Of a DNA stretch of 64,000 bases, positions 36,303 to 57,644 are shown one piece after another; positions within the stretch are counted from its first letter, which is position 1; each line of letters starts with the position of its first letter. Below the pieces are notes generated by a model. It worked only from the letters and a program-made list of their open reading frames with translations, was not told the origin of the DNA and did not search any database. This stretch comes from Armatimonadetes bacterium Uphvl-Ar1 (lineage in GTDB: Bacteria; Armatimonadota; Fimbriimonadia; Fimbriimonadales; Fimbriimonadaceae): assembly GCA_002162075.1 (NCBI GenBank), contig CP021423.1, positions 1,612,001 through 1,676,000 of the forward strand, in the 5' to 3' direction. The position numbers and the translations under genes were made by a program.

Positions 36303-36378
36303 GGCCTCGTAGCTCAGTGGATAGAGCGCCTCCGTCCTAAGGAGGGCGTCGGGGGTTCGATTCCCTCCGGGGCCGCCA
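36303..36378 (+). tRNA. tRNA-Arg (anticodon CCT)
   Basis: Acceptor stem GGCCTCG/CGGGGCC (one T-G pair), D-arm AGCTCAGTGGATAGAGC, anticodon stem CCTCC/GGAGG with loop GTCCTAA (anticodon CCT), T-loop TTCGATT, discriminator G and encoded CCA. It decodes AGG. It is the probable integration site of the island, since an integrase gene starts 114 bases downstream. tRNA-Arg genes are frequent targets of tyrosine integrases. Confidence 0.97.
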
Positions 36379-36491: not shown

Positions 36492-37646
36492 ATGGCAACA
36501 CGCGCAGATCACGGAGAAGGGTCGTGCCGACCGATTAGCACGGGCAAACTCGCAGGAAAGTGGCGCGTTCAGTACGTCCTGGAGGACACCACAGGGGTCA
36601 AAAAACGCATCTCGCGAATCTTCCCGACACAGCGCGAGGGCAAAGACTTCCTGCGCTCTCTCAAGCGATCTGACGAGGTGGCTGCGATTCACAAGGTTCA
36701 AGCGATGACCTTTGGAGAGTGGTTCACATGGCTCTCAGAGAACGACTGGAAGGACTCGCTCGACCCCAAGACACTTAGAGACCGTGTCTCTCGATACAAG
36801 AAGTACGCAGCTCCAAGGTGGGCAGGCGTTCCCCTTACGAAGATCGATCCGTTGGACGTTCGGACGTTCTATCAGAAGCTGAAGGATGATGGCGTCGGGG
36901 AGCACACCCGCATTGCACTCAAAGCTGGACTGGTTCGAGCGTTCAACCAAGCGATCACACCATATAGGAGGGTTCCTCACTTCTGGTCGAATCCGTTCTG
37001 CTTGGATATGCCCGCACCTGCACGACGCGAAGCGGTCGCACTCTCGCCGGAGGAAGCAAAGAAGGCTCTGGCTTCAAAGAAACTCGACGATTCCAGGCGA
37101 GCAATGCTCGGCGTATTCCTTCTGGCTGGACTTCGGCTTGGTGAGCAGATGGCTCTGACCTGTAGTCAGTTGAGAATGAGTGAGGGTCTGATTCTGATTG
37201 ATCGCGCTGTGAAGCTCGATGCGAAGAGTTCACAATCTGTCGGGCTTCCAAAGGGTGACAAGGTTCGGACGGCGGTGATGTGTGACTCGCTCAAGAGACT
37301 CTTACAACCAGTGATTGAGGGGCTCAAAGATGATGACTTGATCTGGCCTCAAGCGAGCGAGAACAAGCCACGTATGAAGGCCCTAGTCTACGCAACCTGG
37401 CGGCGGATTCGGAAGGAGGCTGGATTGCCTGAAAACATGAGCCCGCATGATTGCCGCCTCACCCACATCAACTGGATTGAGAAACTTTGCCCGGAGGTCT
37501 CGCCGACGACCCTCAAAGAGCATGTTGGGCATTCAGCGGATGGCGTGACAGAGGTGAATTACACCAGGCCATTGTCCAATGCCCAACGAATGATGGCGGT
37601 TAGAATAGACTCCTTATTCGCCGAGACGATTAAATCCGACCATTGA
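36492..37646 (+). CDS. tyrosine recombinase (phage-type integrase)
   Basis: The 384-residue site-specific recombinase has an N-terminal AP2-like DNA-binding region (GKWRVQYVLEDTTGVKKRISRIFPTQREGKDFLRSL), a SAM-like core-binding domain (MTFGEWFTWLSEND...) and a catalytic domain. Visible catalytic residues are R215 (AGLRLGEQ), H319 and R322 (SPHDCRLTH), H347 (EHVGHS) and nucleophile Y357 (VNYTRP). K254 is a likely beta-hairpin lysine. It starts 114 bases after tRNA-Arg, the normal place for an integrase that recombines into a tRNA 3' end. Its end overlaps the convergent Dcd-like gene by 17 bases. All key residues are present, so it should be active. Confidence 0.95.
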   Translation: MATRADHGEGSCRPISTGKLAGKWRVQYVLEDTTGVKKRISRIFPTQREGKDFLRSLKRSDEVAAIHKVQAMTFGEWFTWLSENDWKDSLDPKTLRDRVSRYKKYAAPRWAGVPLTKIDPLDVRTFYQKLKDDGVGEHTRIALKAGLVRAFNQAITPYRRVPHFWSNPFCLDMPAPARREAVALSPEEAKKALASKKLDDSRRAMLGVFLLAGLRLGEQMALTCSQLRMSEGLILIDRAVKLDAKSSQSVGLPKGDKVRTAVMCDSLKRLLQPVIEGLKDDDLIWPQASENKPRMKALVYATWRRIRKEAGLPENMSPHDCRLTHINWIEKLCPEVSPTTLKEHVGHSADGVTEVNYTRPLSNAQRMMAVRIDSLFAETIKSDH

Positions 37647-38229
37647 GCACCCAATCAGGCTTTGGCGTACCAACCGTAGGCTTGCGTCCGCCTGCAAAAG
37701 AAGACTTTCTGATTTCTCCCGGTGAGATGTTCTCCACCTCTTCAAAGAAGAGTTGACAGATCGGCATACCCACTAAGAGTTTTATTGGTGCTCGTCCCAC
37801 GTTTGCAATTTCCAGAGTGAGACAACCATTGAATGACGGCTGCACACCGGTAGCTGTAGCTATTATCAGTCCTCGCCTCCCCCAACTAGATTTGCCAACG
37901 ACATGGGCTGACATATTATTAGGGAACCTTAGCCACTCCAGAGTGATGCCAAGGACGAACTGACCAGGATGAACGATGATTGGGCGATTTATCGGGACGT
38001 AGTGCTGTCGAACTATCTGCCCCTCTTTCGTTTCAGGCTCAATAGCGAGACTTTCCGTACTCAGTTCGCGATAGGTGCAAAACCAACTGCCTAAATGCAA
38101 ATCCAAACCAACACTGTCGAGGTCCCCATCCACAATTCTCGGTTCTGGCATGACCACCAAGTCCTTTCTTTCGTCGTAGGCTTGTACATCATCCCAAAGT
38201 CGCTTCTTAATTTCACGTAAAGACAACAT
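37630..38229 (-). CDS. dCTP deaminase/dUTPase-family protein, altered active site
   Basis: The trimeric Dcd/Dut fold is clear: VHPGQFVLGITLEWLRFP, VVGKSSWGRRGL, TATGVQPSFNGCLTLEIANVGRAPIKLLVGMPICQLFFEE. Against E. coli Dcd, the catalytic S111, R115, A124 and E138 appear to align with S114/S115, R118, A126 and E140. The deoxyribose-contact Asp (D128 in the IDPGW motif) is Gln130 here, and the following Gly is Ser. Free-standing dCTP deaminases are known anti-phage proteins that destroy dCTP on infection. Here the gene is third in an operon with an HExxH protease (four-base gap) and a small protein. Substrate and role are inferred, not shown. Confidence 0.75.
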   Translation of the reverse strand: MLSLREIKKRLWDDVQAYDERKDLVVMPEPRIVDGDLDSVGLDLHLGSWFCTYRELSTESLAIEPETKEGQIVRQHYVPINRPIIVHPGQFVLGITLEWLRFPNNMSAHVVGKSSWGRRGLIIATATGVQPSFNGCLTLEIANVGRAPIKLLVGMPICQLFFEEVENISPGEIRKSSFAGGRKPTVGTPKPDWVLNGRI

Positions 38230-38233
38230 CTCT

Positions 38234-39586
38234 TCAGGGAACTCCCGCCATCAGATCATTAATCTCCAATGACTTTGCAACCGTCTCCTTCAACACGCGA
38301 TTGCAGCTAATAAATGCAGTCCACGTCTGTTTTCCTTCAGGAGTTGCGAAGGCAAGCATCTGACCACGCTGCTCATCCGACACTTCCCAAGCTGCACATA
38401 GGGTCTCCTGTGGAGTGCAATCAGATGGAGTTGGCACGCAAAGCGACAAGTAACTTTTTGCCCTCTTTACTCGCTCAGCATCAGGAGCAACAACACCTGC
38501 ACTCTGACCGATTGTACTTGCAAAGGACAAAATCTCAGAAGCAACTTCGATTACCGTTAATTCTCCTAAGATGGAAACGAGGAAGAACGGCTGGGAGGCT
38601 GAGGCGATTGCGCCCAACACCTCAGGGTTGCTATATGGATACACTTCAATACGACTCTTTGTATCGAAAGCTACTTCAAAACACATTGGAATCGAGATAC
38701 CTAACCTGTTTGCAGCGCAGACCAAAAGGCTCGATCTAGTTGCACTTGAACAGTAGGTGTCTGAATAGTCGCCGCGTGCGCCAGTTGCCGCAAGATAAGC
38801 AAATGCACTCAAGTAAGAACTACCAAACGTAGAAATCCCAATGTAATCGCAAAAAGTTTCTTCTGCTTGGCGGTGTGCTGAGCCACTGAGACGTGTAACC
38901 AGGTTTGAGTAAAAGATGTTTGTTTGAAGCTCGCCTGGTGCACCTGGCTTCGTAAGTCCTCCAGTGCATCCCGATCCCTCAAGATGATCCCAATAGTCGA
39001 AGACGATCTTTCGAAACTTCTCGTCGATGAGCCTTCTCAAGTTTTCTTTCGACTTAGAGTATGCCCAGAACGCGTGTCCTGCCTCATGAGCCATTATGGG
39101 ATAGACGAGGGAATTGTCACTTTCGGTTGCTGGAAGTCCAAAGAGGATCATCTCCTCTAACAAGTCGTGCTTTTGATAGTAGAGCGGAGAATAATGCCAC
39201 TCAGAAGCGCACAAAATATTGAATTGAGAACTCGCTAAGACTCCATCTGTATGCAGGAGTTGCGTTGCTAGAGTTTGAACTGATTTTGCTAACTCAAACG
39301 CGATCCGAAGACTTGATGAGCGTTGCAACACGCCTAGTCGCGGCACTAGTTGTGCTATCTTTGAGAGCAACACCCTGCAGGCCTGAGAGATGTCAGCCGG
39401 GGGCGCACTGATAGAATGTAACCTGTCAATTTCAGCATCCAATTTATTGAGTTCTTCGAGATACGAAAAAAGGAGGCGAGATGCTGCCTCCTGGGGAAAG
39501 GCCTGTGACAGCATTCCAAGGATAGTGTCACGGACAACGCTTATTCGCTCTTTCGAGTAACAAGATAAAAGAGATGCCTCATTCAT
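38234..39586 (-). CDS. uncharacterised HExxH zinc metalloprotease-like protein
   Basis: The 450-residue soluble protein has HEAGH at 167-171 and, 70 residues later, QAEETFCDYIGIS (E242/E243, D247). This is the order expected for a gluzincin-type zinc site, with two His, a catalytic Glu and a later Glu ligand. The first about 110 residues are helical (LLFSYLEELNKLDAEIDRLHS). The last about 150 are also helical, with no recognised domain, signal or membrane segment. I know no named family for it. Its ATG overlaps the stop of the small upstream gene (ATGA), and the Dcd-like gene follows by four bases, so the three are one translational unit. A regulated protease in a mobile-island operon suggests a stress or phage trigger. 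Confidence 0.7.
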   Translation of the reverse strand: MNEASLLSCYSKERISVVRDTILGMLSQAFPQEAASRLLFSYLEELNKLDAEIDRLHSISAPPADISQACRVLLSKIAQLVPRLGVLQRSSSLRIAFELAKSVQTLATQLLHTDGVLASSQFNILCASEWHYSPLYYQKHDLLEEMILFGLPATESDNSLVYPIMAHEAGHAFWAYSKSKENLRRLIDEKFRKIVFDYWDHLEGSGCTGGLTKPGAPGELQTNIFYSNLVTRLSGSAHRQAEETFCDYIGISTFGSSYLSAFAYLAATGARGDYSDTYCSSATRSSLLVCAANRLGISIPMCFEVAFDTKSRIEVYPYSNPEVLGAIASASQPFFLVSILGELTVIEVASEILSFASTIGQSAGVVAPDAERVKRAKSYLSLCVPTPSDCTPQETLCAAWEVSDEQRGQMLAFATPEGKQTWTAFISCNRVLKETVAKSLEINDLMAGVP

Positions 39587-40044
39587 AGCGGAAGAGCTTG
39601 CCCTTCTCGAATCGCCTGCTCTACTGCCGTAGTCATATGATTCGATAGAGAGCGAGAGAAGCGCTCAATTTGCTCCAATCGGGCATTGTCCGTTAGGGAG
39701 CCTGAGATAACTTCTTCAAGTTGCTGATCGAGCGTCGTGATTGCGTTCAGGTAAACGCTAACATTAGCTTCAGTGGCAGAAACTAACCCACTCTCTCGAA
39801 GTGCAGGTGCAATTGCCAGAAGAGCAACTGGAAGCACTGAGTCGGGCGACACTCCCTCAAGGCTGTCAAGGCCTAGAAACTCTGGAAGGAAGTCTCGAAA
39901 CGCACTGATAGGAGGAGCGTCGAGCTCTTGACCCTGTCGAGTTGCAGCCAATGCCGTCGATACTTTGATGCAGAGCATTGAGCTCTCAAGGTAATCCACC
40001 CTCGACAGTGCGAGGAGCGGTGAGATTGGAAGGGTTGCTGTCAT
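39583..40044 (-). CDS. small helical protein, first gene of metalloprotease/Dcd-like operon
   Basis: ATG at 40044 (MTATLPISPLLALSRVDYLESS) follows GAGGG; earlier ATGs at 40107-40110 lack a ribosome site. The 153 residues are mostly helical, with no Cys cluster, signal or membrane segment. Motifs are LPEFLGLDSLEGVSPDSVLPVALLAIAP, TTLDQQLEEVISG and RLEQIERFSRSLSNHMTTAVEQAI. No family is recognised. It is coupled by ATGA overlap to the HExxH protease, so it may be its regulator, inhibitor or adaptor. That is inference from position only. Confidence 0.65.
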   Translation of the reverse strand: MTATLPISPLLALSRVDYLESSMLCIKVSTALAATRQGQELDAPPISAFRDFLPEFLGLDSLEGVSPDSVLPVALLAIAPALRESGLVSATEANVSVYLNAITTLDQQLEEVISGSLTDNARLEQIERFSRSLSNHMTTAVEQAIREGQALPL

Positions 40045-40271
40045 TTTTAAAGTTCCCTCGACGAAACAGGACGAATCAGGTCGCCTGAAAGCATCGATTA
40101 CACCCATCATATGATAAAGGAGTGGTCATAGCAATGTGTTCCACGTATTTACCTGATTTTTGCGTTTGGTCGCCAGCGGAGCTGGTCAAACTGAGCATGG
40201 CAGGATGCCATGCATCCGAAGTGGCATTCCAAATACAGCAGTCTTGCACTATTTCTGAGTGTATGTAGCCT

Positions 40272-40947: not shown

Positions 40948-41000
40948 CTGGGGTACAAAATCACCCCCTTTTGACTGTAAACTCTGAACAGAAGTTCGAG

Positions 41001-41804
41001 ATGGCCCTGATCACCTGCACTGAATGCTCAAAGGAGGTGAGCGAATTCGCTCCCTCTTGCCCACATTGCGGCTTTCCACTCGCCGCGATCACCACGGAGG
41101 GCAAAGTTGCGCTTCGGAACTGTCCTGACTGCAGCGGCTCTGGAAAGCAGAAGGACGAGTGTTTCGAATGCGTGAATGGTGTGGCGAAGTGCAAACTTTG
41201 CGGAGGAGGCACCTGGTGGGGTGATGGGCCCCACTGTAATATTTGCAAAGGTTCTGGGACGATGCGCTGTGAATATTGCGGAGGTCAGGGCTACTTCCAA
41301 CGTAACTGCCAGACCTGTGACCACTCCGGACAGATAACGATTCGCCGATACGATGAGATCATCGAGTATCGGCGGGGTGTGGAAGAGGCGAACCAGAAAG
41401 CCAATCAAGAGAGGCTGCGTGAGACGCAAGCAAGGGAGCAGATGGATGCTGCGCAAAAGCTCTCCGCTCTCAAGGAGCGACTCATCGAGCTGAACGGCAC
41501 ATTGCTACACATTGGGTTGGCTCAGAATGGGTTGATTCTCTCTGACGCAGCCTATGCAGTTGATCGAGCCAAGATCATGAAAATCTATGGAGGGCAGCTC
41601 CAAGCTCTCAGAGTACACCGCTTCCAATGCCAATTCTGTGGTGAGCCTCTCGAACGCAAGGAGCGTCTCCGAAAGCTCCACGTTCATGACAAGCAAGACT
41701 GCAAAGAAGGGTGGGATCGGGTCAGCAAACAGATCGCTGAGAACAACTCCGACTATGAGAAATTCATGCGCGAGAACGCTCCTCGAATCGGAGATGAGGG
41801 TTAG
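41001..41804 (+). CDS. zinc-ribbon / DnaJ-type cysteine-rich protein
   Basis: ATG at 41001 begins MALITCTECSKEVSEFAPSCPHCGFPL, an N-terminal zinc ribbon (two CxxC pairs). It is followed by repeated CPDCSGSGKQ, CFECVNGVAKCKLCGGGTW, CNICKGSGTMRCEYCGGQGYF and CQTCDHSGQI. These CxxCxGxG-type modules are those of the DnaJ zinc domain, which binds unfolded protein. A coiled coil follows (IEYRRGVEEANQKANQERLRETQAREQ) and later another pair (CQFCGEPLERKERLRKLHVHDKQDC). There is no J-domain. The gene is 11 bases from the next, so the two are likely an operon. Function unknown. Confidence 0.7.
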   Translation: MALITCTECSKEVSEFAPSCPHCGFPLAAITTEGKVALRNCPDCSGSGKQKDECFECVNGVAKCKLCGGGTWWGDGPHCNICKGSGTMRCEYCGGQGYFQRNCQTCDHSGQITIRRYDEIIEYRRGVEEANQKANQERLRETQAREQMDAAQKLSALKERLIELNGTLLHIGLAQNGLILSDAAYAVDRAKIMKIYGGQLQALRVHRFQCQFCGEPLERKERLRKLHVHDKQDCKEGWDRVSKQIAENNSDYEKFMRENAPRIGDEG

Positions 41805-41815
41805 TCGAGGCACGT

Positions 41816-42682
41816 ATGCAGTGGGTTTTAGGCATCGTATACCTGTTCTTCTTGTTTGCTCTGTGGCAGTTTTTCGTTGTGTTGTTCGTCGCCACTGCCA
41901 TTGCATCCTTGCTTGCCGCTATATTCCTGTCGGTGCGAGCGACCATGCTTGCACGAGCTCCTGGCGTCATCGAAGTACAAGAGCAGAACGGCAGCTATGT
42001 CTGCACAATTCATCCTTCAGCATACGACCGGATTGGCCTCATCGCGGTCTACTTTCCACTGATCGCCTACTTACTGGTGTGGCTCTTTATGGCGAATAAT
42101 GCTATGCAGGCTGGTCTGGATTTCATGGACGTCCTTGGACTTGTCATGCTCCTACCTCCAGTTTTCCTTATTTTCAAGTTTGCTCCGAAGTTGGAGTGGT
42201 TTGCGAAATCACCCCTAGAGAGATTCGCCAAGAAGGCGACGGATAAGCTCAGGATTCCCGAATTCTTAATCCAGTCCGATGCGAAAGGGCGGGAATTGGC
42301 AAAAGCTCTCGCCGGGCAGTGGTCTCCCTCATTCACAGAACGCTACCTTCAACGACTCGAAATGGAGCCGATGTTGCTTCAAACTGAGAAGGCTCAACTG
42401 GAAGTGATCGAAGAGTTTAGAAAACCAGGAATGCACGATCTCAACCTCCTCTCCACCGCCGAGGATCACTGGAAGGCCGTAGATGCGTTGGTTAAAATCG
42501 CCTCCGAAACGGCTATCGTCCTAAAAGATGAGCAGATGAAGAGCGACGCCGCATTTCTCGCTAAATCCCTACGCGACCCCGAACTGTCCGACCTGTTGGA
42601 GTTTCGAGACTTCGGGGAGTTTTACGATGTTCTGGTAGCGATCCAAGCGGACGCGGAGAAGTTGCTGGAGGGGCGATTCTAG
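41816..42682 (+). CDS. membrane protein of unknown function
   Basis: The 288 residues begin with two close hydrophobic helices (MQWVLGIVYLFFLFALWQFFVVLFVATAIASLLAAIFLSV). Two more membrane segments lie near residues 75-125 (GLIAVYFPLIAYLLVWLFM; VLGLVMLLPPVFLIFKF). The C-terminal half is soluble and helical (FTERYLQRLEMEPMLLQTEKAQLEVIEEF; TAEDHWKAVDALVKIASE). No family is recognised. It is probably co-transcribed with the zinc-ribbon protein. Confidence 0.6.
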   Translation: MQWVLGIVYLFFLFALWQFFVVLFVATAIASLLAAIFLSVRATMLARAPGVIEVQEQNGSYVCTIHPSAYDRIGLIAVYFPLIAYLLVWLFMANNAMQAGLDFMDVLGLVMLLPPVFLIFKFAPKLEWFAKSPLERFAKKATDKLRIPEFLIQSDAKGRELAKALAGQWSPSFTERYLQRLEMEPMLLQTEKAQLEVIEEFRKPGMHDLNLLSTAEDHWKAVDALVKIASETAIVLKDEQMKSDAAFLAKSLRDPELSDLLEFRDFGEFYDVLVAIQADAEKLLEGRF

Positions 42683-42758: not shown

Positions 42759-43028
42759 TTGGGACGGTTGCTTTGCCTTACGAACCCTTACGGGCCCTTC
42801 TTCGCGCTGGACCAATGCAGCCAGGTTTACAACTGCACCCTTCACCAGATGAACCGCTATCTAGGACACTCACAGATTGCCTTGACTTCTATCCTGTATC
42901 GCAACGTGCTGGATGAGGCCACGATGTATTCCGCTACTATGCTACAAGAGGCATACGTTAACACGGCTTCTTGTGAGCCGTCCCCAGTTCCGAACCCGGC
43001 TACATCGGGAAACTATCACCGAGAATGA
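42759..43028 (+). pseudogene. remnant of a tyrosine recombinase C-terminus
   Basis: The frame 42759-43028 contains HQMNRYLGHSQIALTSILYRNVLDEATMYSATMLQ (about 42843-42950). This matches the box II LGHSxxxxT...Y end of tyrosine recombinases, with H36-like and Y47-like residues. The sequence upstream in the same frame is not recombinase-like and there is no start with a ribosome site, so it looks like a fragment left by an older element. The 317 bases between the membrane protein and the nucleotidyltransferase gene hold nothing else that I can support. Confidence 0.45.
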
Positions 43029-43869
43029 TCTTCCAAAGACGCTTTGCTTCCGCGTGATCACCGTCCTCTTCTGCCTTCAAAGCCTTTTGTGCTCGGTCAG
43101 CAGCGGATGCAAGCGCCTGAACCAGGTCATTTCTGCCGCTCCTGCTTAGGTAACTACTCAGGTCGCCACTTTGTCCACCTGGGTCATTGACCGACAAGTT
43201 ACCCTGGCTCCACTCGAAAAACTTCAGTACAGCATCCCGGTAGTTGCTTCCCATTGAACTAAAGATTGTTCCGGCTACTGTTTCAAGATGAAACGAACGC
43301 ATCCGCTTCGAATGCGTCCTGTTCCACGATTTAACCAGCCTCACAAGAGGTGCAAGATGGTAGCCCAGGTCCTGATTGCGCTTCGCAAACCACTTACTCG
43401 CCACAGTCGGCGAAGTATTAATCCATCCTCCAGACCCGTTCGGTAGCAGATACACATCGTTTCCGGCTGAGAACACGGGCGCAACATCAACGTGGCCGCC
43501 AGTCTGGTAAAAAACACGTATTGCTTGCCCCCTAGTTCCTACTTGCTGGATTGAGACTCCGTCATAGGCGTCTCTTATTCTATAAATAAATCCCTTCGAG
43601 TCATACTTATACTTCTCCCAAGCATCGTTGACATTTGAAAAGACTGCAAGCACATCAATATCATCGATTGGGCGAATAATAGTGTTCTTTTCTGCAGACC
43701 CCATGAGTAACCCGTGTGAGTACGGCATGTCTGATGTGCTCTTAAACTTTTCCGTCAGCCGTTCGTCTACGGTTCTCTTTCTAGCTGTAATAATGGTCTC
43801 TTTTTGATAGTCAGTTGCACTGATATCTTCAAGAAACTTCGCGAACGCTTGCGCGGTTGTAGACGCCAT
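43000..43869 (-). CDS. CD-NTase-like (SMODS) nucleotidyltransferase 1
   Basis: A pol-beta fold nucleotidyltransferase. GS at 57-58 (LLMGSAEKNTIIRPIDDIDVLAVF), metal-binding D70 and D72, and a third acidic residue D128 (GGHVDVAPVF) complete the active site. The layout GS...x(10-12)-DxD plus a helical C-terminal half matches the SMODS/CD-NTase enzymes that make cyclic oligonucleotide alarm signals in CBASS. Its C-terminus (DLVQALASAADRAQKALKAEEDGDHAEAKRLWKIILG) resembles that of the second nucleotidyltransferase at 44798-45631, so the two are paralogues. It lies three bases after the S-4TM gene. It is the last gene of the defence series. The product nucleotide is unknown. Confidence 0.85.
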   Translation of the reverse strand: MASTTAQAFAKFLEDISATDYQKETIITARKRTVDERLTEKFKSTSDMPYSHGLLMGSAEKNTIIRPIDDIDVLAVFSNVNDAWEKYKYDSKGFIYRIRDAYDGVSIQQVGTRGQAIRVFYQTGGHVDVAPVFSAGNDVYLLPNGSGGWINTSPTVASKWFAKRNQDLGYHLAPLVRLVKSWNRTHSKRMRSFHLETVAGTIFSSMGSNYRDAVLKFFEWSQGNLSVNDPGGQSGDLSSYLSRSGRNDLVQALASAADRAQKALKAEEDGDHAEAKRLWKIILGDSFPM

Positions 43870-43872
43870 GCT

Positions 43873-44790
43873 CTATCCCTTTCCTCCCTTGAATTTTGTA
43901 GACATGTCATTAGCTGCAGCCAGCATCTCCCTCTCATTCCTATTTCTGAGCAGTTTATACAGCCAGTCCGGCACTAGGGGTGCATCTCGACGTAGCGAGA
44001 ACAACTGAGATTGCCATGCAAGCAGTTGCTCCGGAAGAATCTCATTGACTGCATCAACTGCTATCGCATCATGTATCTCATTCGCTAGAGCTTCACGTTC
44101 ACGGCTCGCTAACCTAACTACTGTAAACTCTTCCCACGCGTCCACTAAGGGCGGTAGGATTGGTATTACCACCGCCAAAAGAAACGTCGCTAAAGAAAAG
44201 TCTCTGAATAGGCCGATCCAAACAGCAACGAACGCCCAAACAATTAGTACAACTAACCATAAAGATGCATACCAGAGCAGCAAACGCCTGGTATATGCCG
44301 CGTTTGCTCTCTGAGCTATAGCAATTGCAACGCGACCTGGTGAATTGGTTTCAATCGGATACCAGTCACGCAATTTTTCGATTGAATACATTGCTCTTCT
44401 TGAAGGCATCTTCAATGCAACCATATCCTCCGGAAGAATTCGGGGTTCTCTTGCTGCGATCATCGGCATGCAAAAGATTTTCATATCGAATTCTTCTTGA
44501 ATAATTGCTCCACGTGCAGCACCCCGCCGCTCCAAATACTTAAATAACGCGATGTTGAAAACATACCAAACGGATGCAACCGTTGCCAGGGTAACAGCAA
44601 GATGCTCATCATATGCGGTGAGAACAGGGGCGCTAACAGCAACTACGAAGACGCCAAGATATCGCACATTTGACCAAATTTTTGCAGATGAGTACACTTT
44701 TCGCTGTGCAAGTAGAAGGCTCAAGTTCGCGTCACTATTTTGCGCTTCAAGAATCTCGGTTGCGGATGGAGGTTGATAGTTTCTGGGCAT
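43873..44790 (-). CDS. S-4TM family putative pore-forming effector
   Basis: Two pairs of membrane helices stand at about residues 38-90 (VRYLGVFVVAVSAPVLTAY; VTLATVASVWYVFNIALFKYL) and 195-250 (LLLWYASLWLVVLIVWAFVAVWIGLF; TFLLAVVIPILPPLVDAW). They are separated by a cytoplasmic part with IIQEEFDMKIFCMP. A helical C-terminal region follows (REREALANEIHDAI). The IQExFD motif and 2+2 helix layout are those of the S-4TM family, predicted pore-forming effectors found beside SMODS nucleotidyltransferases. Probable role: membrane disruption when its nucleotide signal appears. It is flanked by two nucleotidyltransferases at gaps of three and seven bases. Confidence 0.85.
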   Translation of the reverse strand: MPRNYQPPSATEILEAQNSDANLSLLLAQRKVYSSAKIWSNVRYLGVFVVAVSAPVLTAYDEHLAVTLATVASVWYVFNIALFKYLERRGAARGAIIQEEFDMKIFCMPMIAAREPRILPEDMVALKMPSRRAMYSIEKLRDWYPIETNSPGRVAIAIAQRANAAYTRRLLLWYASLWLVVLIVWAFVAVWIGLFRDFSLATFLLAVVIPILPPLVDAWEEFTVVRLASREREALANEIHDAIAVDAVNEILPEQLLAWQSQLFSLRRDAPLVPDWLYKLLRNRNEREMLAAANDMSTKFKGGKG

Positions 44791-44797
44791 AATATTG

Positions 44798-45631
44798 TTA
44801 CCTGTTAAACAAAAGCTCTAGCTGAGCGATAGCGTTTGAGTGGTCCTCATTTCTGTGATAATTCTTTGCCTTCTCTGCACGAGCCACGGCTGTGGACAGC
44901 TTTGACATCGCATCAGCTTTACTCGCATCTGTCGAGCACGATGTAAACCTCGAGCCTAAACCACTAGGATCGTTCATTGATGCCAGAGAATGGTCGTGAA
45001 GCTTCTTAAGTAATTGATAGATATCCCAGACAGGAACATATGAGGCTTCACCAGATAAATGCTGTGCTGCCCGCATTTCCAGATAACAGGACGAGACGGG
45101 CACATTTCTTCTGTACTTCCAAATTTTCATGAAACGAGCCAGTTGTTTCGCACCACCATTGAAAGTGCTGTTGATTCCATTTACATATTCGTTATGCTTT
45201 TCAGGAAACGTATTCATCCAACCGTCGATTGGACTTGCAACGCGATACCCTTTGTCATCTCCATCAAAGATGTAGCCAGGAATAACCTCTACTATTCCAT
45301 CACTAAACTGGCAAACGACTGCTGGCCTTCGAATTTGTATAGTCGTAGTTGGGAACCTACCTTGTAGCGACTCCTTTACTTTATTCAACATTGTCCATGG
45401 ACTGGAAGGTTGACTACCCTTCAACGAAACGAGGTAATCGGCATCACTGTGCTGCCACACGCCTGTGCCATGGCGCAATGAACCTATCTCAAACATTCGA
45501 TGCACTCCGAGAGTTGAATCAAGCCGTGTCTCAATGGACGATCTGTGTCTCCTTGCTGCATCAAACTGAAATGATGTTGGCGTAAAATGAGAGTTCAGCT
45601 CCTTCAACCACGATGTTGTAGTTTCGGCCAT
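44798..45631 (-). CDS. CD-NTase-like nucleotidyltransferase 2
   Basis: GS at 50-51 (FEIGSLRHGTGVWQHSDADYLVSL), D63 and D65 form the metal-binding DxD, and E115 (DGIVEVIPGY) is the third acidic residue. The fold is the same as in nucleotidyltransferase 1, but the residue order is different enough for another product or for a regulatory partner role. The C-terminal half (FMKIWKYRRNVPVSSCYLEMRAAQHLSG) keeps the substrate-side helices, and the last 40 residues resemble those of the paralogue. It is separated by two bases from a small upstream reading frame and by seven from the S-4TM gene. Confidence 0.8.
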   Translation of the reverse strand: MAETTTSWLKELNSHFTPTSFQFDAARRHRSSIETRLDSTLGVHRMFEIGSLRHGTGVWQHSDADYLVSLKGSQPSSPWTMLNKVKESLQGRFPTTTIQIRRPAVVCQFSDGIVEVIPGYIFDGDDKGYRVASPIDGWMNTFPEKHNEYVNGINSTFNGGAKQLARFMKIWKYRRNVPVSSCYLEMRAAQHLSGEASYVPVWDIYQLLKKLHDHSLASMNDPSGLGSRFTSCSTDASKADAMSKLSTAVARAEKAKNYHRNEDHSNAIAQLELLFNR

Positions 45632-45850: not shown

Positions 45851-46570
45851 CTAGTATTGCCAATCCTCGTGTCGCACTGGTAGCCGATTTAACTCTTCGC
45901 GATAGAACTTCCATTTCGGCATATTCTCGTTCATCAAATTGATAAATCGCTCGTTGTGGCTCCGCTCGATCAGGTGAACCATTTCATGCACGACGATATA
46001 TTCAAGGCACTCCACTGGCTTCTTTGCTAGCTCAGTGTTTAGACGTATGTTCCCCTTTTCGTGGCTACAGCTACCCCATTTTGTTTTCATGCGCTGAACG
46101 TAGAAGTTGGCGACTTCGACGCCAATTTTGGGCTCCCACTTGGCGATCAGCTTCGGAACGGCCGATTTTAGTTGCTGCCTTAGCCAGGTTTCAAGTAACT
46201 CCGCTCGTTTCTCAACGGTTGAGTCCGGGCGTACGTGAAGTTCAAGATGACGTGCACGAAGGACTACATGGGGCGTTGTGGCCGTCTCAAACACGTGCAA
46301 AAGGTATCGTTTGCCCCACAGATAGTGGCTCTCACCGTTTACATACTCACGCGGGGTTATCCGCTCTTGAGATTGAAGTTTCTTCTGTTGCTGCTTAATC
46401 CACCGCAACTTCGAGACCGCATACGCCCGAACATTGTCGATGGACATCCGTTCTGGTGCTGAGATTCTCACGTGACCGTTCGGGGGATAGACGCTCAGGT
46501 GAACGTTCTTGATGTCCTTCAAGATCACGTCGGCAACAATATCTCCAAGTGTGATTTGAGCTTCCATCAA
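45851..46570 (-). CDS. YgjP/SprT-like metallopeptidase of type I restriction loci
   Basis: FYVQRMKTKWGSCSHEKGNIRLNTELAKKPVECLEYIVVHEMVHLIERSHNERFINLMNENMP is the zinc site (HExxH plus a later His) of the DUF45/YgjP-like family. This family is very often encoded beside hsdR. The N-terminal half is beta-rich (VHLSVYPPNGHVRISAPERMS). The start overlaps the hsdR stop as ATGA. Its role in restriction is not known. Proteolytic control of the restriction complex is a common guess. Confidence 0.9.
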   Translation of the reverse strand: MMEAQITLGDIVADVILKDIKNVHLSVYPPNGHVRISAPERMSIDNVRAYAVSKLRWIKQQQKKLQSQERITPREYVNGESHYLWGKRYLLHVFETATTPHVVLRARHLELHVRPDSTVEKRAELLETWLRQQLKSAVPKLIAKWEPKIGVEVANFYVQRMKTKWGSCSHEKGNIRLNTELAKKPVECLEYIVVHEMVHLIERSHNERFINLMNENMPKWKFYREELNRLPVRHEDWQY

Positions 46571-49500
46571 TACTCCTTCTGGTTACGGATAATCGAGAAA
46601 ACGCGCTCAACTTCCTCGTCATCTTTCAGGATGCTGTAGAGCTCCCGCTTGATAACCTTTTCTTTCTGGGGGTTTCCTCGCCAACCGTCCGGACGCACTT
46701 TCCGAATCGCGGCGTCCAACTGGAGGGCCAACTGCTCGTCTTGTCCAAGGTTATTATAGAGGGCTCGCTTGCCATGGCTATTGAGGGTCGAAGGAATATC
46801 TGGCGAAGCTCCCTCTTCAACCATTTTCGCTAGAGCAGCGATCTTCTTGAGATATTCCTCATACTTGAGAGCCTTGTCCTTGCGGGCGGCAATTATCTCA
46901 GCCAGTAACGCAGACATCTTTGCGAAGAACGCCGGGTCGTTGATCTGCTCCTTCACGATTTTGCTTCGGACGTTGTTCTCGATAGTCTCAGCAATCGCTT
47001 CTTGGTTACCTCGAAGCCCTTCCGGAAGTGACTCGATGGCGGCGGCGATTCCTGTCTTCACGATCAACTCAAGCAACGGCATGTCATCGAAAGGAGAAAT
47101 CTTTCTAGGTTCGTCGGCCTGGATATAGGTGTCGATGAGATGCCGCATGTCCGCCTCGAACGGCTTGATGTCGAGCACTTCACCAGCGGCCTGACGGATT
47201 ACGTCGCGGAGCTTCACATAGTGATCGAGTCGCTCTTTGATGACTGCGATCCACTGATCAGAATAGCCTGCCTCACTCAGCTCATCAGCGATATTCGCAT
47301 AGGCTCGGATTAAACCAACGGTCAGCTTGTACAGAGTAACGCGTTGAACTTCTCGGTCCGCCAAATCAGATGGTATTTCGGTATTCCCACAGAAGTAGTG
47401 GATGTGTTCAAGCTCGCCCTGCGGTAGATCAACCGGTTCGCAAAGCACATGCAGGGCCTCAAGTGCGGCATCGAGACGCTGACGACCGAGCTCAAGGCGA
47501 TCCTTGATTAGCACTTCCGGCTCGGCTCCCTCAGCTGAATCATCAAGCTCGGACGTATAGACGGAAATCGCATTCTCGACCTTCTTGAAGAGGTCTTTAT
47601 AGTCCACGATGTGACCGAAGTCTTTGTCCTCACCGTCGAGCCGGTTGGTTCGGCATATCGCTTGGAACAGACCATGATCTTGGAGCGACTTGTCGATATA
47701 GAGGTACGTGCAAGGAGGTGCATCGAAGCCTGTGAGGAGTTTATTCACCACGATCAGGAGCTTCATGTTCGCCGGTTCCTTCTTGAACCGCTCCTTCATC
47801 GCATCCTCGTAGGTCTCGGTCTTGGACTTTCCTGGGGCCGCATCAACCTTTTTCAGAAGGTCCGTGTAGACGTTGTAGATGTACTGCTTGTCGGTCTCGG
47901 TGTTCGCGCCCGTATCCTCAAGGGTCACGTCGCGGGCCTGAGGATCGTATGACGTGATGATCGCACAGTGGTTTTTGAAGACCGTCTTCTGGAACAGCTC
48001 GAAGTATTTGCAGGCTTCATAAATGCTTGAAGCCACGAGCATCGCGTTTCCACGCTCACTCGAAAGGCGTGGCTGAACACTGAAGTCAAAAACAACGTCC
48101 GCGACCACTCGGTCCATGCGGGCTTTGGAGCTGAGGACGCTCTGCATCGTGCCCCATTTGTTCTTAAGCTCTTCTCGCTGCCATTCGTTCAGACCTTTGG
48201 TCTTTGCGTCGAACCACAGATCGATCTTCTCTTGGTTGCCGACGTGCTGATCGATGTCCCTTGCTTCGTAGATGAGGTCAAGTACGACTTCATCCTCGAC
48301 GGCTTCCTTGAATTTATAGGTGTGGATGTAGCTGCCAAAGACCTCCATCGTGGTCTGCTTGTCTTGACGGAGCAGCGGCGTTCCCGTAAATCCGATGAAG
48401 ATCGAACCGGGAAGCAATGCCTTCATTGCCTTGTTCAGCTTTCCGCTTTGGGTGCGGTGGGCTTCATCGACAAACACGAATATCTCGCCTTGCACTTGGC
48501 TCGGCTTGGATTTGATCTCCTCGATGAACGAATCGAAGTTGGCGACGCCCCTCTGCCCAAACTTGTGAACTAGGGAGCACAGGAGCCTCGGCTTCGCTTG
48601 CGAGAGTTGATACATCAGGTCCGATCCGCTGCTCGTCCGATAAATCTCCTGGCCTGCGCCCTCGAAGACGTCCTTGATCTGCTTGTCGAGCTCGTCGCGG
48701 TCGGTGATCAGGCAAACGCGGGCGTTCGGGTTATGCTCCAGAATCCACTTAGCTAGAAGCACCATGACGATGCTCTTTCCGCTGCCCTGGGTGTGCCAGA
48801 TGATTCCACCTCTGTTCTCCTTGATGCGCTCCTGAGCGAGCTTCACACCGAAAAACTGGTGTGGGCGTGGGAGCTTCTTGACTCCGGCATCGAACACGAC
48901 AAAGTTCCGAACCAGGTCGAGGAGCCGGTTCTTCTCAAAAATTTTGAGGAGGTACTTGTCTAGCTTGAAGCGGGTGTTATCCTCCTCGTCCTCCTTCCAC
49001 TTCAGCCAAAACTTCTCGGGCGTGCCTATCGACCCGTACTGGAGACCTTCAGAGTCATTTCCAGCCATCACAAACTGGACGGTGGGATAAAACCACTCGT
49101 GGAACATCTTGTCTTGGTTGCTGATCGCTTGGCGAACGCCTTCACCGATTCCTACTGTGCTTCGCTTAAGCTCAAGCACTCCGAGCGCAAGGCCGTTCAA
49201 GTAGATTGCGATGTCGGGACGACGCTCATGGTCGCCGTTGAGCGTGACTTCTTCGGCGATAGCAAAGTCGTTCTTCTCCGGCTGATCCCAGTTGATGAGC
49301 CAAACCTTCTCGGTGTTCTCGCTTGCGCCAACCTTGACGTCAACCCCGTAATACAGGAGGTTCCAAACCGCCTGGTTGTTTGCGTAGAGGGTTCTCGATG
49401 GGTTCGTAGTTTCGCGGCGAAGTTTGTCTAAAGCTCGACTGATCTGATCCTGCGTATAGCCAGACTTAACGAGGAAAGCACTCAGAAGGTCGGTCTCAAT

Positions 49501-49617
49501 GTTGGAGTTGCCTTCGCGCTCTTCCCAATTGCCGAGATAGGTGTACTTAAGCTCGTCCCGAAACAGCGCGACGACGCGGTTCTGGGTGATGCGCTCGATC
49601 TTTCCGACTTCGCTCAT
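46567..49617 (-). CDS. hsdR: type I restriction enzyme, R (endonuclease/translocase) subunit
   Basis: ATG at 49617 overlaps the upstream stop as ATGA; the longer frame is rejected. The N-terminal nuclease carries RRPDIAIYLNGLALGVLELKR (PD-ExK). The helicase motor has Walker A (IIWHTQGSGKSIVM), motif II (VDEAHRTQSG), motif III (FTGTPLL) and motif VI-type residues (QAICRTNRL, preceded by LLTGFDAPPCTYLYIDK). The C-terminal part is helical. Length 1,016 is normal for HsdR. It cuts DNA lacking the modification after ATP-driven translocation and works with the HsdM and HsdS encoded upstream. Confidence 0.97.
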   Translation of the reverse strand: MSEVGKIERITQNRVVALFRDELKYTYLGNWEEREGNSNIETDLLSAFLVKSGYTQDQISRALDKLRRETTNPSRTLYANNQAVWNLLYYGVDVKVGASENTEKVWLINWDQPEKNDFAIAEEVTLNGDHERRPDIAIYLNGLALGVLELKRSTVGIGEGVRQAISNQDKMFHEWFYPTVQFVMAGNDSEGLQYGSIGTPEKFWLKWKEDEEDNTRFKLDKYLLKIFEKNRLLDLVRNFVVFDAGVKKLPRPHQFFGVKLAQERIKENRGGIIWHTQGSGKSIVMVLLAKWILEHNPNARVCLITDRDELDKQIKDVFEGAGQEIYRTSSGSDLMYQLSQAKPRLLCSLVHKFGQRGVANFDSFIEEIKSKPSQVQGEIFVFVDEAHRTQSGKLNKAMKALLPGSIFIGFTGTPLLRQDKQTTMEVFGSYIHTYKFKEAVEDEVVLDLIYEARDIDQHVGNQEKIDLWFDAKTKGLNEWQREELKNKWGTMQSVLSSKARMDRVVADVVFDFSVQPRLSSERGNAMLVASSIYEACKYFELFQKTVFKNHCAIITSYDPQARDVTLEDTGANTETDKQYIYNVYTDLLKKVDAAPGKSKTETYEDAMKERFKKEPANMKLLIVVNKLLTGFDAPPCTYLYIDKSLQDHGLFQAICRTNRLDGEDKDFGHIVDYKDLFKKVENAISVYTSELDDSAEGAEPEVLIKDRLELGRQRLDAALEALHVLCEPVDLPQGELEHIHYFCGNTEIPSDLADREVQRVTLYKLTVGLIRAYANIADELSEAGYSDQWIAVIKERLDHYVKLRDVIRQAAGEVLDIKPFEADMRHLIDTYIQADEPRKISPFDDMPLLELIVKTGIAAAIESLPEGLRGNQEAIAETIENNVRSKIVKEQINDPAFFAKMSALLAEIIAARKDKALKYEEYLKKIAALAKMVEEGASPDIPSTLNSHGKRALYNNLGQDEQLALQLDAAIRKVRPDGWRGNPQKEKVIKRELYSILKDDEEVERVFSIIRNQKEY

Positions 49618-50552
49618 GATTGGCCTCCAGGGATCAGTTTGAAGCTGACTTGATATCGATAGAATGATACGGAAGGGACCGCGGACAAAGCCCACTTGAG
49701 CCGAGGATCATCCTCCAACGCGATGACCACGCCTTCCACGGACTGATCTAGTTCTGCGACTTGCCCTTTAATGTAGCCCATATAACGAAGAATCTGGCCA
49801 ACGACAACATCGCTCGCTCGTCCCCGCTTTAGCTCAACCACGAGAAGCCGCTTTCTATCCTTGCTGATGGCAAGAATATCAATCGGCCCCGTGTCGGTCG
49901 GATACTGTTGTCCAACGATCTCGCCTTCCTCTTGGAAGATGTCGAACTCTTTGCTTAGGGGTGTTGAATTCCAATTAGCCACCAGAAAGGCCTCCAGGTG
50001 TTTCTCCATCGCAAACGCAACCGGGTCTTCAACCTCGGGGTCGCCTTTGATCTGGAGGACGGGACCACTTTGGCTGCCTAGGAACTGCTCAATCTCTTCA
50101 TGGAACCTAGTGATCTCGCTAACTGTGCCGATTGAGCCGGTTGAGTTCTGCAGAGCTTCGCTCATTGCCGAGCGTGGAATCACCACATCTAGCCACTTAA
50201 CGGGGCGGTGGTGTGGCAATGGAGAATCGGGCGAATATACATAGCTTCCGGTGATCTCGCCTACCTTGTATGAACCCTTTCCATCTGGACAAAGCACCAG
50301 ATCACCCACTTGAAATCCTTTACAGATCCGCCAAAGGGCTCCGACGTTGGCGGCGGCACTAGCTTTCGACTTCTCCGGGAACTGTTCGCGCTGGATCGGA
50401 ATAAACTCTTGCCGAAAATGCCAGGCGTCTTCGGAGAGCCGCTCTGTGAGATCGAGGCCAAACACAAATCCCGCTGCAATGTAGCCACCATCAAAACACT
50501 CTTGGGCGTGGCGGCTTTGCGGCCCGAGCATAACGCGGTAGTAGTTTCTCAT
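49614..50552 (-). CDS. NucS/DUF91-type nuclease encoded within the type I restriction operon
   Basis: The N-terminal about 160 residues (MRNYYRVMLGPQSRHAQECFDGGYIAAGF, FQVGDLVLCPDGKGSYKVGEITGSYVYSP) resemble an EVE/PUA-like or Mrr N-terminal module. The C-terminal half (DTGPIDILAISKDRKRLLVVELKRGRASDVVVGQILRYMGYIK) has the D...(x)n-ExK nuclease core and the Q-x3-R-Y of NucS/RecB-like (DUF91) endonucleases. It sits between hsdS and hsdR with ATGA overlaps on both sides, so it must be made together with them. It may add a second nuclease or read modified bases. Its function is not established. Confidence 0.85.
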   Translation of the reverse strand: MRNYYRVMLGPQSRHAQECFDGGYIAAGFVFGLDLTERLSEDAWHFRQEFIPIQREQFPEKSKASAAANVGALWRICKGFQVGDLVLCPDGKGSYKVGEITGSYVYSPDSPLPHHRPVKWLDVVIPRSAMSEALQNSTGSIGTVSEITRFHEEIEQFLGSQSGPVLQIKGDPEVEDPVAFAMEKHLEAFLVANWNSTPLSKEFDIFQEEGEIVGQQYPTDTGPIDILAISKDRKRLLVVELKRGRASDVVVGQILRYMGYIKGQVAELDQSVEGVVIALEDDPRLKWALSAVPSVSFYRYQVSFKLIPGGQS

Positions 50553-51814
50553 ACGAGCCTCACCTTCCCAGTCAACAACTGTTGCATCATGCCTTGCTTG
50601 ATGGCCTTGGTCTTCGTAACGCGATCTTGAAGGAATGCGATCTCAGAGTCAATATCCGCGAGAACTTCCGAAATAGCGTCCTGTTCGTCTCTGGCAGGAA
50701 GGGTAAGGACAGCACTCGTCAAAGCTGGCTTTGAAATGTTGTACCGGGTAGAGCCCTGAGCAAGCGATTTGACGATCTCACGCCCTTGCGAACTACGAAA
50801 GAACGATGCAAGAAATGAGCCGTTTATTTTTGACCTGTCTGTGAATCTAAAACCAAAACAAAAGCTATTCAGATACAAATCTGGAATATCGCAATCAACA
50901 TATGCACACATAGCGACCTCCTCAGGGGTTTCAGATGAGCCATTGAAAAGAAGGTCCCCACGAATAACATGGTTCTGAGACTCGGAAGAAGAAACCCGTA
51001 CATATCCGAGTTGAGCCGGGTCGATGACCACGTTGGACATCACATTCATGAATGTGACGTAGGGACAATTCCCAGAATCGAAATCCGCCTTGGACTTCCC
51101 TGACAATCCGCCATAAGCGAATCCAAGCTGTGAGAGCTTGACCCGCTCCCAGTCGCCACGGAAGCCGGGGAGGCGGATTTGGCCGGTCAGGAGCTGCTGC
51201 ACGACGGACTGTTTGAGATCGCGCTTTTTGGCGATCAGCCGGTCAAGCCTGCTCAGCAGCTGATCCACATCACCCAATGCTGTTGCGATAGCGCGTTGCT
51301 CTGGGAGAGAGGGAATTGGCGCAAGAACACGTCCAAGATTCTGTTGGCCGACGTTGGCGCGAACCGCGCCTTGTCCCATGGGAATAATCTGTGACCTGAT
51401 GCAAGGAGCACGAAGTGCGTAGCCAGCGTAAACTGGGTCGAGGCTCTCGGCAAGTGGTCGCCCACGAATTACAAACCCTCCGAACACAACGCGTTCAGTT
51501 CCCAAGTAGGTTGCGGCCAATGCAACTTCTTCTTGTGTTTCTGAAGTGCGATTGAAAAGCACATCACCCCGACGGACGGTGTAAGATTTAAGAATCGATT
51601 CAGGCAACGTAACTTGCCCGGTGATTTCCGGGCCGTGGATGTGTGAGTATGTAATCGGCTCAAGAACATTGATGAACCGAACCCCTTGCCCATATGCTGC
51701 CTTGTCAGCATTGACGCCGTTTCGGAACGCGAAGAGTTCGGCAAACCGTGTCACTTCCCAGTCCTCCGGGACGACGCCGACCTCGGTCTGTTTGTAGCCG
51801 GGCTTCACTTCCAT
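50549..51814 (-). CDS. hsdS: type I restriction enzyme, S (specificity) subunit
   Basis: Two target-recognition domains with conserved spacer helices. The first half begins MEVKPGYKQTEVGVVPEDWEV and ends with IPSLPEQRAIATALGDVDQLLSRLDRLIAKKRDLKQSVVQQLLTGQIRLPGF. The second ends with LPARDEQDAISEVLADIDSEIAFLQDRVTKTKAIKQGMMQQLLTGKVRL. It selects the bipartite DNA target for both methylation and cleavage. Length 421 is normal. Start overlaps hsdM by ten bases. Confidence 0.97.
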   Translation of the reverse strand: MEVKPGYKQTEVGVVPEDWEVTRFAELFAFRNGVNADKAAYGQGVRFINVLEPITYSHIHGPEITGQVTLPESILKSYTVRRGDVLFNRTSETQEEVALAATYLGTERVVFGGFVIRGRPLAESLDPVYAGYALRAPCIRSQIIPMGQGAVRANVGQQNLGRVLAPIPSLPEQRAIATALGDVDQLLSRLDRLIAKKRDLKQSVVQQLLTGQIRLPGFRGDWERVKLSQLGFAYGGLSGKSKADFDSGNCPYVTFMNVMSNVVIDPAQLGYVRVSSSESQNHVIRGDLLFNGSSETPEEVAMCAYVDCDIPDLYLNSFCFGFRFTDRSKINGSFLASFFRSSQGREIVKSLAQGSTRYNISKPALTSAVLTLPARDEQDAISEVLADIDSEIAFLQDRVTKTKAIKQGMMQQLLTGKVRLV

Positions 51815-56541: not shown

Positions 56542-57620
56542 GCTGACACCTCCTTCTTCGCATGCTTCCTCAGAGTGTTCCTCGAAGTTCCGGTAAGTTC
56601 GGATGCTCGACGCTGTGAAACTCCGCTAGAGATAAGCTTCTCCGAAATGTCGTGTCTCCTTGCCATTGGAAGAAGCCTCAATCTCTCGGCAAAGGCCTCA
56701 ATCACCCCTTCCTGCTCATCAGATTTGTTCATGACAGCACTACGCCGCCCGGCATTGACCCGACTCACAATCTCAGCGTGATTCATACCATCTGAAATGT
56801 CTGCGAGCATTAACAGCATAGATTCACTGGTCAGGCACGGCATTCTCCTAAGTACTTCGGTGCGTTCAGCCAACCCTGGCAAGGGCAGGTTAAAAGTCAG
56901 GTCAAATCGACGCCAGATTGCAGGGTCAAGAATATCAGGGTGATTTGTTGCTGCCAGAACAAGCGAGCCCTCGGGCCACTCATCAAGCTCTTGCAGGAGA
57001 ACGTTGACCAATCGCTTGAGCTCGCCTAGGTCAGTCTCGTCGGCGCGTTTTTTCGCGATAGCATCAACCTCATCGAGCAACAGAATGCAATCGAACTCTT
57101 TGCAGAAATCAAAGAGCTGGCGTACATTCTGCCCAGTCTTCCCTAGAAAGCTGCTGATAGACGAAGACAGGTCAAGGACTACAAGCGGCCTTCTCAGTTC
57201 ACGAGCAATCCATTGAGCAGCCATGGTCTTGCCGACACCCGGCGGCCCGATGAGAAGGGCAGACTTGCTCGGAGATAGACCAGCCAGCTTCAGTGCGGAA
57301 GAATCCAAGTGCTCTGCAACGAGTTGACGCAGTTGCTGTTCGAGAGTAGCAGGCAAGACGGGCTTTTCGGCTAAGGCTGCATCGACAATTCTTGCCAGCG
57401 CGAGCCTTGAATCAGCATCTACAGGCAGCGGCCTCTTTGCGCTCCGAAGCGACCCTTCGCTTACCACAATGGACGCCAGCGCAGCTGAAAGTTCGGGAAC
57501 GGTTTTTCGGTATTGCTGGGCCATTTTGCGAGCCAGGGCCTTTACATCTCTACTCCGACCTTCTGCGCCGAATCGAACCAAGTGGATCACGTCCTTGATC
57601 ACTGAATCAAATTGCTCCAT
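56538..57620 (-). CDS. ietA: IetA-like AAA+ ATPase with C-terminal helix-turn-helix
   Basis: ATG at 57620 (MEQFDSVIKDV) has a strong GAAGGAG site five bases upstream, so the longer start is rejected. The AAA+ module has Walker A (LIGPPGVGKTMAA), Walker B (CILLLDEVDAIAKKR), sensor 1 (LVLAATNHPD) and the arginine-finger region (AIWRRFDLTFNLPLPG). It is followed by the lid. The last about 45 residues (MARRHDISEKLISSGVSQRRASELTGTSRNTLRKHAKK) read as a helix-turn-helix, not an obligatory part of AAA+ proteins. It may bind DNA or another partner. It is the first gene of the operon. Two repeats lie near its promoter. Pair with the subtilase: IetAS anti-phage system. Confidence 0.88.
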   Translation of the reverse strand: MEQFDSVIKDVIHLVRFGAEGRSRDVKALARKMAQQYRKTVPELSAALASIVVSEGSLRSAKRPLPVDADSRLALARIVDAALAEKPVLPATLEQQLRQLVAEHLDSSALKLAGLSPSKSALLIGPPGVGKTMAAQWIARELRRPLVVLDLSSSISSFLGKTGQNVRQLFDFCKEFDCILLLDEVDAIAKKRADETDLGELKRLVNVLLQELDEWPEGSLVLAATNHPDILDPAIWRRFDLTFNLPLPGLAERTEVLRRMPCLTSESMLLMLADISDGMNHAEIVSRVNAGRRSAVMNKSDEQEGVIEAFAERLRLLPMARRHDISEKLISSGVSQRRASELTGTSRNTLRKHAKKEVSA

Positions 57621-57644
57621 GCTGCTCCTTCGTTCCATGAATCT

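Follow-up and report, generated by a model that had tools for sequence, protein, structure and literature searches.

Organization of the operon

The genome of the armatimonadote Uphvl-Ar1, a single 2.99-Mb contig (CP021423.1), carries a genomic island in which three genes form a tight minus-strand operon next to a tyrosine integrase. We analysed this operon within a stretch of 64,000 nucleotides (positions 1,612,001 to 1,676,000 of the contig, hereafter the window). The three genes, called here the trio, encode a small helical protein (SML), a HExxH protein of an unnamed family that is a putative zinc metalloprotease (HEX) and a protein of the dCTP-deaminase/dUTPase fold (DCD) (Table 1). A first-pass annotation had described them as three tightly coupled genes beside the integrase, and the open reading frames (ORFs) were found exactly so: SML and HEX overlap by ATGA (39583-39586), and a gap of 4 bases (38230-38233) separates HEX from DCD. 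DCD and the integrase gene are convergent, tail-to-tail, and their 3' ends overlap by 17 bases. An alternative upstream ATG at 40110 would extend SML to 175 amino acids (aa). The promoter-like site at 40134-40106 weakly favours the start at 40044; the consensus scan found five such sites in the region, against 2.5 expected.

Table 1. Features of the operon and of the island around it (window positions)
Feature	Position	Strand	Evidence or remark
SML, small helical protein, 153 aa	39583..40044	-	ORF; first gene of the operon
HEX, 450-aa HExxH protein of an unnamed family, putative zinc metalloprotease	38234..39586	-	
HEAGH zinc-site motif (putative), H167-E168-A169-G170-H171 of HEX	39074..39088	-	predicted helix 164-176
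EETFCD motif, residues 242-247 of HEX	38846..38863	-	predicted helix 224-254
DCD, 199-aa dCTP-deaminase/dUTPase-fold protein	37630..38229	-	PF22769, TIGR02274
DCD active-site stretch, S114 to E140	37810..37890	-	alignments to 2qxx/2j4h and 17 trio DCDs
Promoter-like site TTGCTA-17-TATGAT, just upstream of SML	40106..40134	-	consensus scan only, 9/12 matches
Tyrosine integrase of the island	36492..37646	+	PF00589, 5.6e-13
tRNA-Arg(CCT)	36303..36378	+	ARAGORN; integrase just after it
Attachment repeat, last 23 bases of tRNA-Arg(CCT)	36356-36378	+	exact direct repeats
CBASS-like locus, two SMODS cyclases (289, 277 aa) flanking one S-4TM effector	43000-45631		
Type I restriction-modification operon (HsdR, HsdS, HsdM)	46567-54204		
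IetAS pair, S8 subtilase and AAA ATPase	54292-57638		IetS 1.7e-47, IetA 1.4e-80

HEX carries an invariant putative zinc site

The first-pass annotation had noted HEAGH and EETFCD motifs in a protein without known family. Both motifs were located, and HEX gave no match in Pfam, NCBIfam, PADLOC or PHROGs. The idea that it belongs to a named peptidase family was rejected, since PDB sequence searches and Foldseek searches of PDB and BFVD with the model (E <= 0.001) were equally matchless. Moreover, none of 16 HEX relatives matched a peptidase family in Pfam or NCBIfam. All 17 core HEX proteins have HExGH, and so do three distant ones. The residues E242, E243, F245 and D247 are likewise invariant in the core set, in which position 246 is C in 16 proteins and S in one; the distant proteins keep E-x-x-C/A-D, at a spacing of 26-55 residues from HExGH. 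EETFCD would thus provide a putative third zinc ligand and a supporting Asp. In the AlphaFold2 model (predicted local distance difference test, pLDDT, 78.7; low confidence at 128-155) the HExxH helix and the downstream Glu on a second predicted helix follow the order of motifs and helices expected of a gluzincin. The zinc site proposed earlier is supported, as a putative one, by invariance and by its position on two predicted helices; the overall fold of the model resembled nothing known.

DCD is a dCTP-deaminase-like protein with a presumably altered sugar pocket

DCD matches PF22769 (4.5e-29, 101.9 bits, cut-off 27) and TIGR02274 (111.9 bits, cut-off 92.8), and the closest solved relatives of its family profile are dCTP deaminases (2qxx, 7.9e-32). 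It thus shares a fold family with canonical Dcd and Dcd-Dut enzymes (E. coli 2j4h, M. tuberculosis 2qxx). We take Ser111, Arg115, Ala124 and Glu138 (E. coli numbering) to be the catalytic residues of dCTP deaminases, and Asp128 presumably sits in the sugar pocket. The window DCD has K113, S114, R118, A126 and E140, with Q130 at the Asp128 position. The complete catalytic set occurs in this protein and in 15 other trio DCDs, the exception being locus L022, which keeps E140 only: S114, R118 and A126 are found in 16/17 proteins, and E140, R182 and P184 in 17/17. Nearly all trio DCDs therefore share with canonical enzymes the K/R-S-S..R, T-A and E residues and the C-terminal G-x-R-x-P lid. Unlike canonical enzymes, they have Q or H at the Asp128 position (16/17; P in L022, which lacks Ser and Arg), one residue is deleted ahead of it, and HEX always adjoins. 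The residues listed in the first-pass annotation are thus correct, but the exchange of the Asp, described there for this protein, is a trait of the whole family. A histidine at this site was considered as a diagnostic of the trio and rejected, because the Dcds of L081 and L087 appear to have it without HEX; membership was decided by tree group.

With a mean identity of 48%, DCD is more conserved than HEX (33%). The host genome encodes a normal dUTPase and no other Dcd.

SML is a small, fast-evolving helical protein

A homologue of SML lies directly upstream of HEX at every locus whose contig reaches that far. It is the least conserved member of the trio, at about 15% identity to the window copy. 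Its AlphaFold2 model is a six-helix bundle (pLDDT 87, predicted template-modelling score 0.81) with no fold match in PDB, and no family of Pfam scored above its cut-off against the sequence. A subset of SML proteins (L014, L011, L012, L017 and L018) ends in P-[YF]-[RKH]-[RTK] at the extreme C-terminus, and many others are without this motif. The ending could possibly serve as a docking or cleavage tail for the protease; an overlapping ribosome-binding site would also explain it in part.

Joint inheritance of the three genes

After collapsing duplicates, we counted 19 independent HEX loci, spanning Armatimonadota, Planctomycetota, Kiritimatiellae, Methylacidiphilales, Alpha- and Gammaproteobacteria, that is, at least four phyla. 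Before this collapsing, HEX relatives were found at 14 loci of the genome collection and on contigs of IMG/VR. The distribution is patchy (roughly 0.3-1% of genomes): HEX is present in 3/291 Armatimonadota and in none of seven same-genus genomes searched. It also occurs in the Planctomycetota and Alphaproteobacteria samples, and relatives are carried by ten Rhizobium conjugative plasmids. In the Gammaproteobacteria sample only the sample's own centre matched strongly, and a marginal match (G1173, E 7e-4) was excluded from the counts. More distant HEX proteins with the same motif order and a small gene before them were found on a Bradyrhizobium conjugative plasmid (L088) and at L092 and L094.

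At all 19 loci the order of the genes is constant, with SML directly upstream and DCD directly downstream of HEX wherever the contig suffices; the contigs of L013 and L021 end before DCD and that of L024 before SML. That three unrelated genes stand side by side by chance is therefore almost inconceivable, and this explanation was rejected. Pairwise distances of HEX and DCD are also correlated (Mantel r 0.75, reached in 0/10000 permutations).

The first-pass annotation had proposed that repeated pairing with Dcd-like genes across genomes would support a system, and this pairing was strongly borne out, also from the side of DCD. Dcd-like genes were detected in 29 of 241 Armatimonadota genomes. 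In the Dcd tree the trio DCDs, together with L061-L065 and L071, fall outside the supported canonical group, although the trio itself does not resolve as a single clade and the placement of L022, a long branch, is unsure. A HEX homologue, truncated in L065, lies directly upstream of 9/9 trio-type Dcds of Armatimonadota, whereas none was found within about 1.4 kb of the 21 other Armatimonadota Dcds (Fisher p 7e-8). As L061-L063 are near-identical, the nine trio-type genes represent about seven independent lineages. These comparisons of genomes show that SML, HEX and DCD are inherited together and that, within the sample, a trio-type Dcd occurs only with HEX. In our interpretation SML-HEX-DCD would be one functional unit and a mobile module.

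A scan for the HEX motifs recovered two known loci, a broken fragment (L055) and a false match (L056). The fragment (L055, 637-1254) lies at the edge of a viral contig and adjoins phage head genes.

Genomic setting of the other copies

Mobile elements and defence genes recur around the trio. On the Rhizobium conjugative plasmids it adjoins S8, trypsin and AAA genes. Two other copies have phage genes close by: the tail genes of a prophage precede the trio in L023, and a terminase is found near it in L024. Neighbours of defence type include CHAT and Pepco proteins, a type III methylase, a type I R-S fusion and a TIR gene, and in one copy a PLD-helicase lies 11 bp downstream. By raw neighbour counts, taken without a background rate, about half of the other loci have defence or mobile genes next to them. 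Several copies are solitary in chromosomes, with no element nearby. On one IMG/VR contig (L008) a Pepco-domain protein (PF24393, 5687-6061) adjoining a CHAT protein comes directly after the trio.

Lineages that have lost an active site

Two branches of the family have lost residues in opposite partners. In three related genomes (L089-L091) HEX lacks both HExxH and the downstream Glu, and the Dcd catalytic residues are intact. The gap between HEX and the gene before it measures only 56 bp in L089, too little for an SML; the absence of metal site and SML beside an intact DCD ties SML to the metal site of HEX. Conversely, L022 has an intact HEX and a Dcd without the K/S/R/T/A residues, which retains E140, N143, R182 and P184. 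These opposite losses are one event each; they hint that HEX and DCD depend physically on one another and that SML serves the protease. In L089-L091 the gene is the only Dcd match of the genome and lies in conserved chromosomal synteny; the pair looks domesticated.

Relation to described systems

The first-pass annotation had linked DCD to the established anti-phage dCTP deaminases. This link did not hold beyond analogy: DCD matched 0/5027 PADLOC models at E <= 1, and the DCD of L023 likewise none. For AvcD of AvcID, the literature describes a deoxycytidylate deaminase whose partner is an RNA antitoxin (PMC10511110). The outcome, depletion of dC nucleotides, would be the same if DCD deaminates dCTP. 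However, DCD has the dUTPase/Dcd fold and two protein partners, and, given the different fold family and the lack of a PADLOC match, its identification as a known anti-phage dCTP deaminase was rejected. The likeness, an analogy, is functional and not homologous. Among the known outputs of defence is the depletion of nucleotides (review, PMC11124354; for AvcID, PMC10511110).

For HEX, the nearest precedents are CapP/CapH and PprI(IrrE)/DdrO, in which a HExxH protease acts on a partner protein in defence or damage responses (PMC10904395). These systems have in common with HEX the HExGH motif followed by E-x-x-C/A-D. However, no DNA-binding domain is recognised in SML, HEX proteins measure 400-460 aa and have a long helical stretch at the N-terminus, the spacing from HExGH to E is 26-79 residues, and the core family has no profile match. 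The distant HEX of L094 matched the capP model weakly (E 0.0026), which is not significant over ten queries. A relation of HEX to ImmA/IrrE thus stands as a lead at the level of motifs.

A second precedent is the FxSxx-COOH/zincin peptide-processing pair of Kaur et al. 2020 (PMC7159879), who mention no Dcd there. That pair, like the trio with its putative protease, sets a zincin next to a small protein that diverges fast, in a setting of conflict. A further likeness is the C-terminal P-[YF]-[RKH]-[RTK] ending of a subset of SML proteins, a motif that many others lack. The NCBIfam models of this pair matched neither HEX nor SML, and no peptidase match appeared across the 16 HEX proteins.

No operon combining a Dcd with a HExxH protein was found in the literature searched, which left most subscription papers outside its coverage, and in agreement with the first-pass annotation neither there nor among the PADLOC defence models did we find a named system with this trio. 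The protease family and the three-gene combination thus appear to be undescribed, and the likely principles exist separately.

Possible functions of the trio

The trio is probably a phage-defence system of an undescribed kind. The first-pass annotation had proposed a defence operon, and this is plausible from the island, which also carries a locus resembling the cyclic-oligonucleotide-based anti-phage signalling system (CBASS), type I restriction-modification genes and IetAS, and from the prophages and plasmids that carry other copies. We tentatively favour a module directed against phages or competing mobile elements in which SML controls HEX and HEX controls DCD. SML, the fast-evolving helical protein, would receive the infection signal; HEX would be a zinc protease, and SML would be its restraint or its target. 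Once active, HEX would release, process or activate DCD. By changing the pool of dCTP/dUTP, or a related nucleotide, DCD would then halt either phage replication or the cell itself. We use as an analogy a switch of the CapP/CapH or IrrE/DdrO style, a protease with a small partner, that would act ahead of an enzyme of the nucleotide pool. SML diverges fastest and DCD slowest, with HEX between them, and this order together with the pattern of losses favours the chain, as conservation decreasing from DCD to HEX to SML is expected for effector, switch and sensor.

Several observations weigh against the favoured chain. About half of the loci lie among housekeeping genes (L006, L011, L017, L018, L019, L035, L037, L092 and L094), which also tempers the defence proposal as such. 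The L022 Dcd indicates that deaminase chemistry is not always needed, and the dead HEX beside a kept Dcd in L089-L091 that proteolysis is not always needed either. In addition, no cleavage site was identified in SML or DCD, and the HEX model, poor around 128-155, matched no known protease fold.

The L022 locus, with HEX intact and Dcd altered, fits better a chain running in reverse, in which DCD senses a nucleotide changed by infection and switches on HEX as effector protease, SML being an inhibitor or adaptor. DCD would then bind dCTP, dUTP or a phage-modified dNTP through the retained pocket and the C-terminal lid. The residues kept in L022, the invariant metal-site residues of core HEX proteins and the Asp exchange, which suggests an altered ligand, all agree with such an order. 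We nevertheless consider it rather unlikely: the sensor would be the most conserved protein of the three, which is unusual, and the conservation of Dcd residues in L089-L091, where HEX has no metal site and at least L089 no SML, would be odd for a pure switch.

The carriage of the trio by islands, plasmids and prophages, and a first gene that is small and evolves fast within a closely coupled operon, would also suit a toxin-antitoxin-like stabiliser of mobile elements, in which a labile SML, as antitoxin, restrains HEX and/or DCD until loss of the element frees the toxin. Toxin-antitoxin function and phage defence overlap. However, a set of three conserved genes that includes two large ones differs from the usual toxin-antitoxin pairs, and several chromosomal copies have no element nearby, making this quite improbable. 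Improbable, too, is a role in nucleotide metabolism, by which DCD would supply dUMP/dUTP for dTTP synthesis in hosts without a normal Dcd and HEX would be a regulatory or structural partner. The dUTPase-positive host without other Dcd and the domesticated appearance of L089-L091 (only Dcd match, dead HEX, conserved synteny) are in line with it, but the trio is very patchy and mobile, the seven same-genus genomes live without HEX, and the invariant protease-like site would be left unexplained.

With more doubt than the favoured chain, one may consider a new immune class, in which a new family of zinc proteases under the control of a small helical sensor would regulate a Dcd-fold protein whose sugar pocket has been re-tooled, or would itself be regulated by that protein. 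Its ligand would perhaps be other than dCTP, for example a phage-modified nucleotide; the HEX-DCD pair would be ancient, reaching to the distant HEX proteins of low similarity, and the catalytic partner could swap.

If confirmed, the favoured interpretation would extend the defence modules by one that combines an uncatalogued protease family with the dUTPase/Dcd fold; dUTPase is among the predicted but unvalidated defence domains of DefensePredictor (PMC13092281). The independent loss of catalytic residues in HEX and DCD provides natural dead versions to tell switch from output, and the orphan 'dCTP deaminase' annotations of plasmids and prophages could be explained, in a way open to test, by the trio.

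The island around the trio

Exact copies of the 23-bp end of the tRNA-Arg lie 42, 61 and 68 kb farther downstream in this genome (G000 C1:1690703, 1709647 and 1716406). Three exact repeats within 68 kb are expected of a tandem array of integrated elements, and the trio's own element would measure about 42 kb and extend beyond the window. In two same-genus genomes (G151 and G155) the tRNA end is likewise repeated near the tRNA.

Within the island, the two cyclases of the CBASS-like locus match different PADLOC cyclase models, in a two-cyclase layout. A nuclease-like gene with a NucS_C domain (49614-50552; PF01939, 1e-7) lies between HsdR and HsdS, and an ArdC-type antirestriction protein (ArdcN and MPTase-PolyVal domains, 58374-59243) shares the island with the type I restriction-modification operon. 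Between the trio and the CBASS-like locus, two plus-strand genes without clear family occupy 40971-42682; one encodes a zinc-ribbon-like protein of 277 aa rich in CxxC repeats, and the other a protein of 288 aa with hydrophobic segments.

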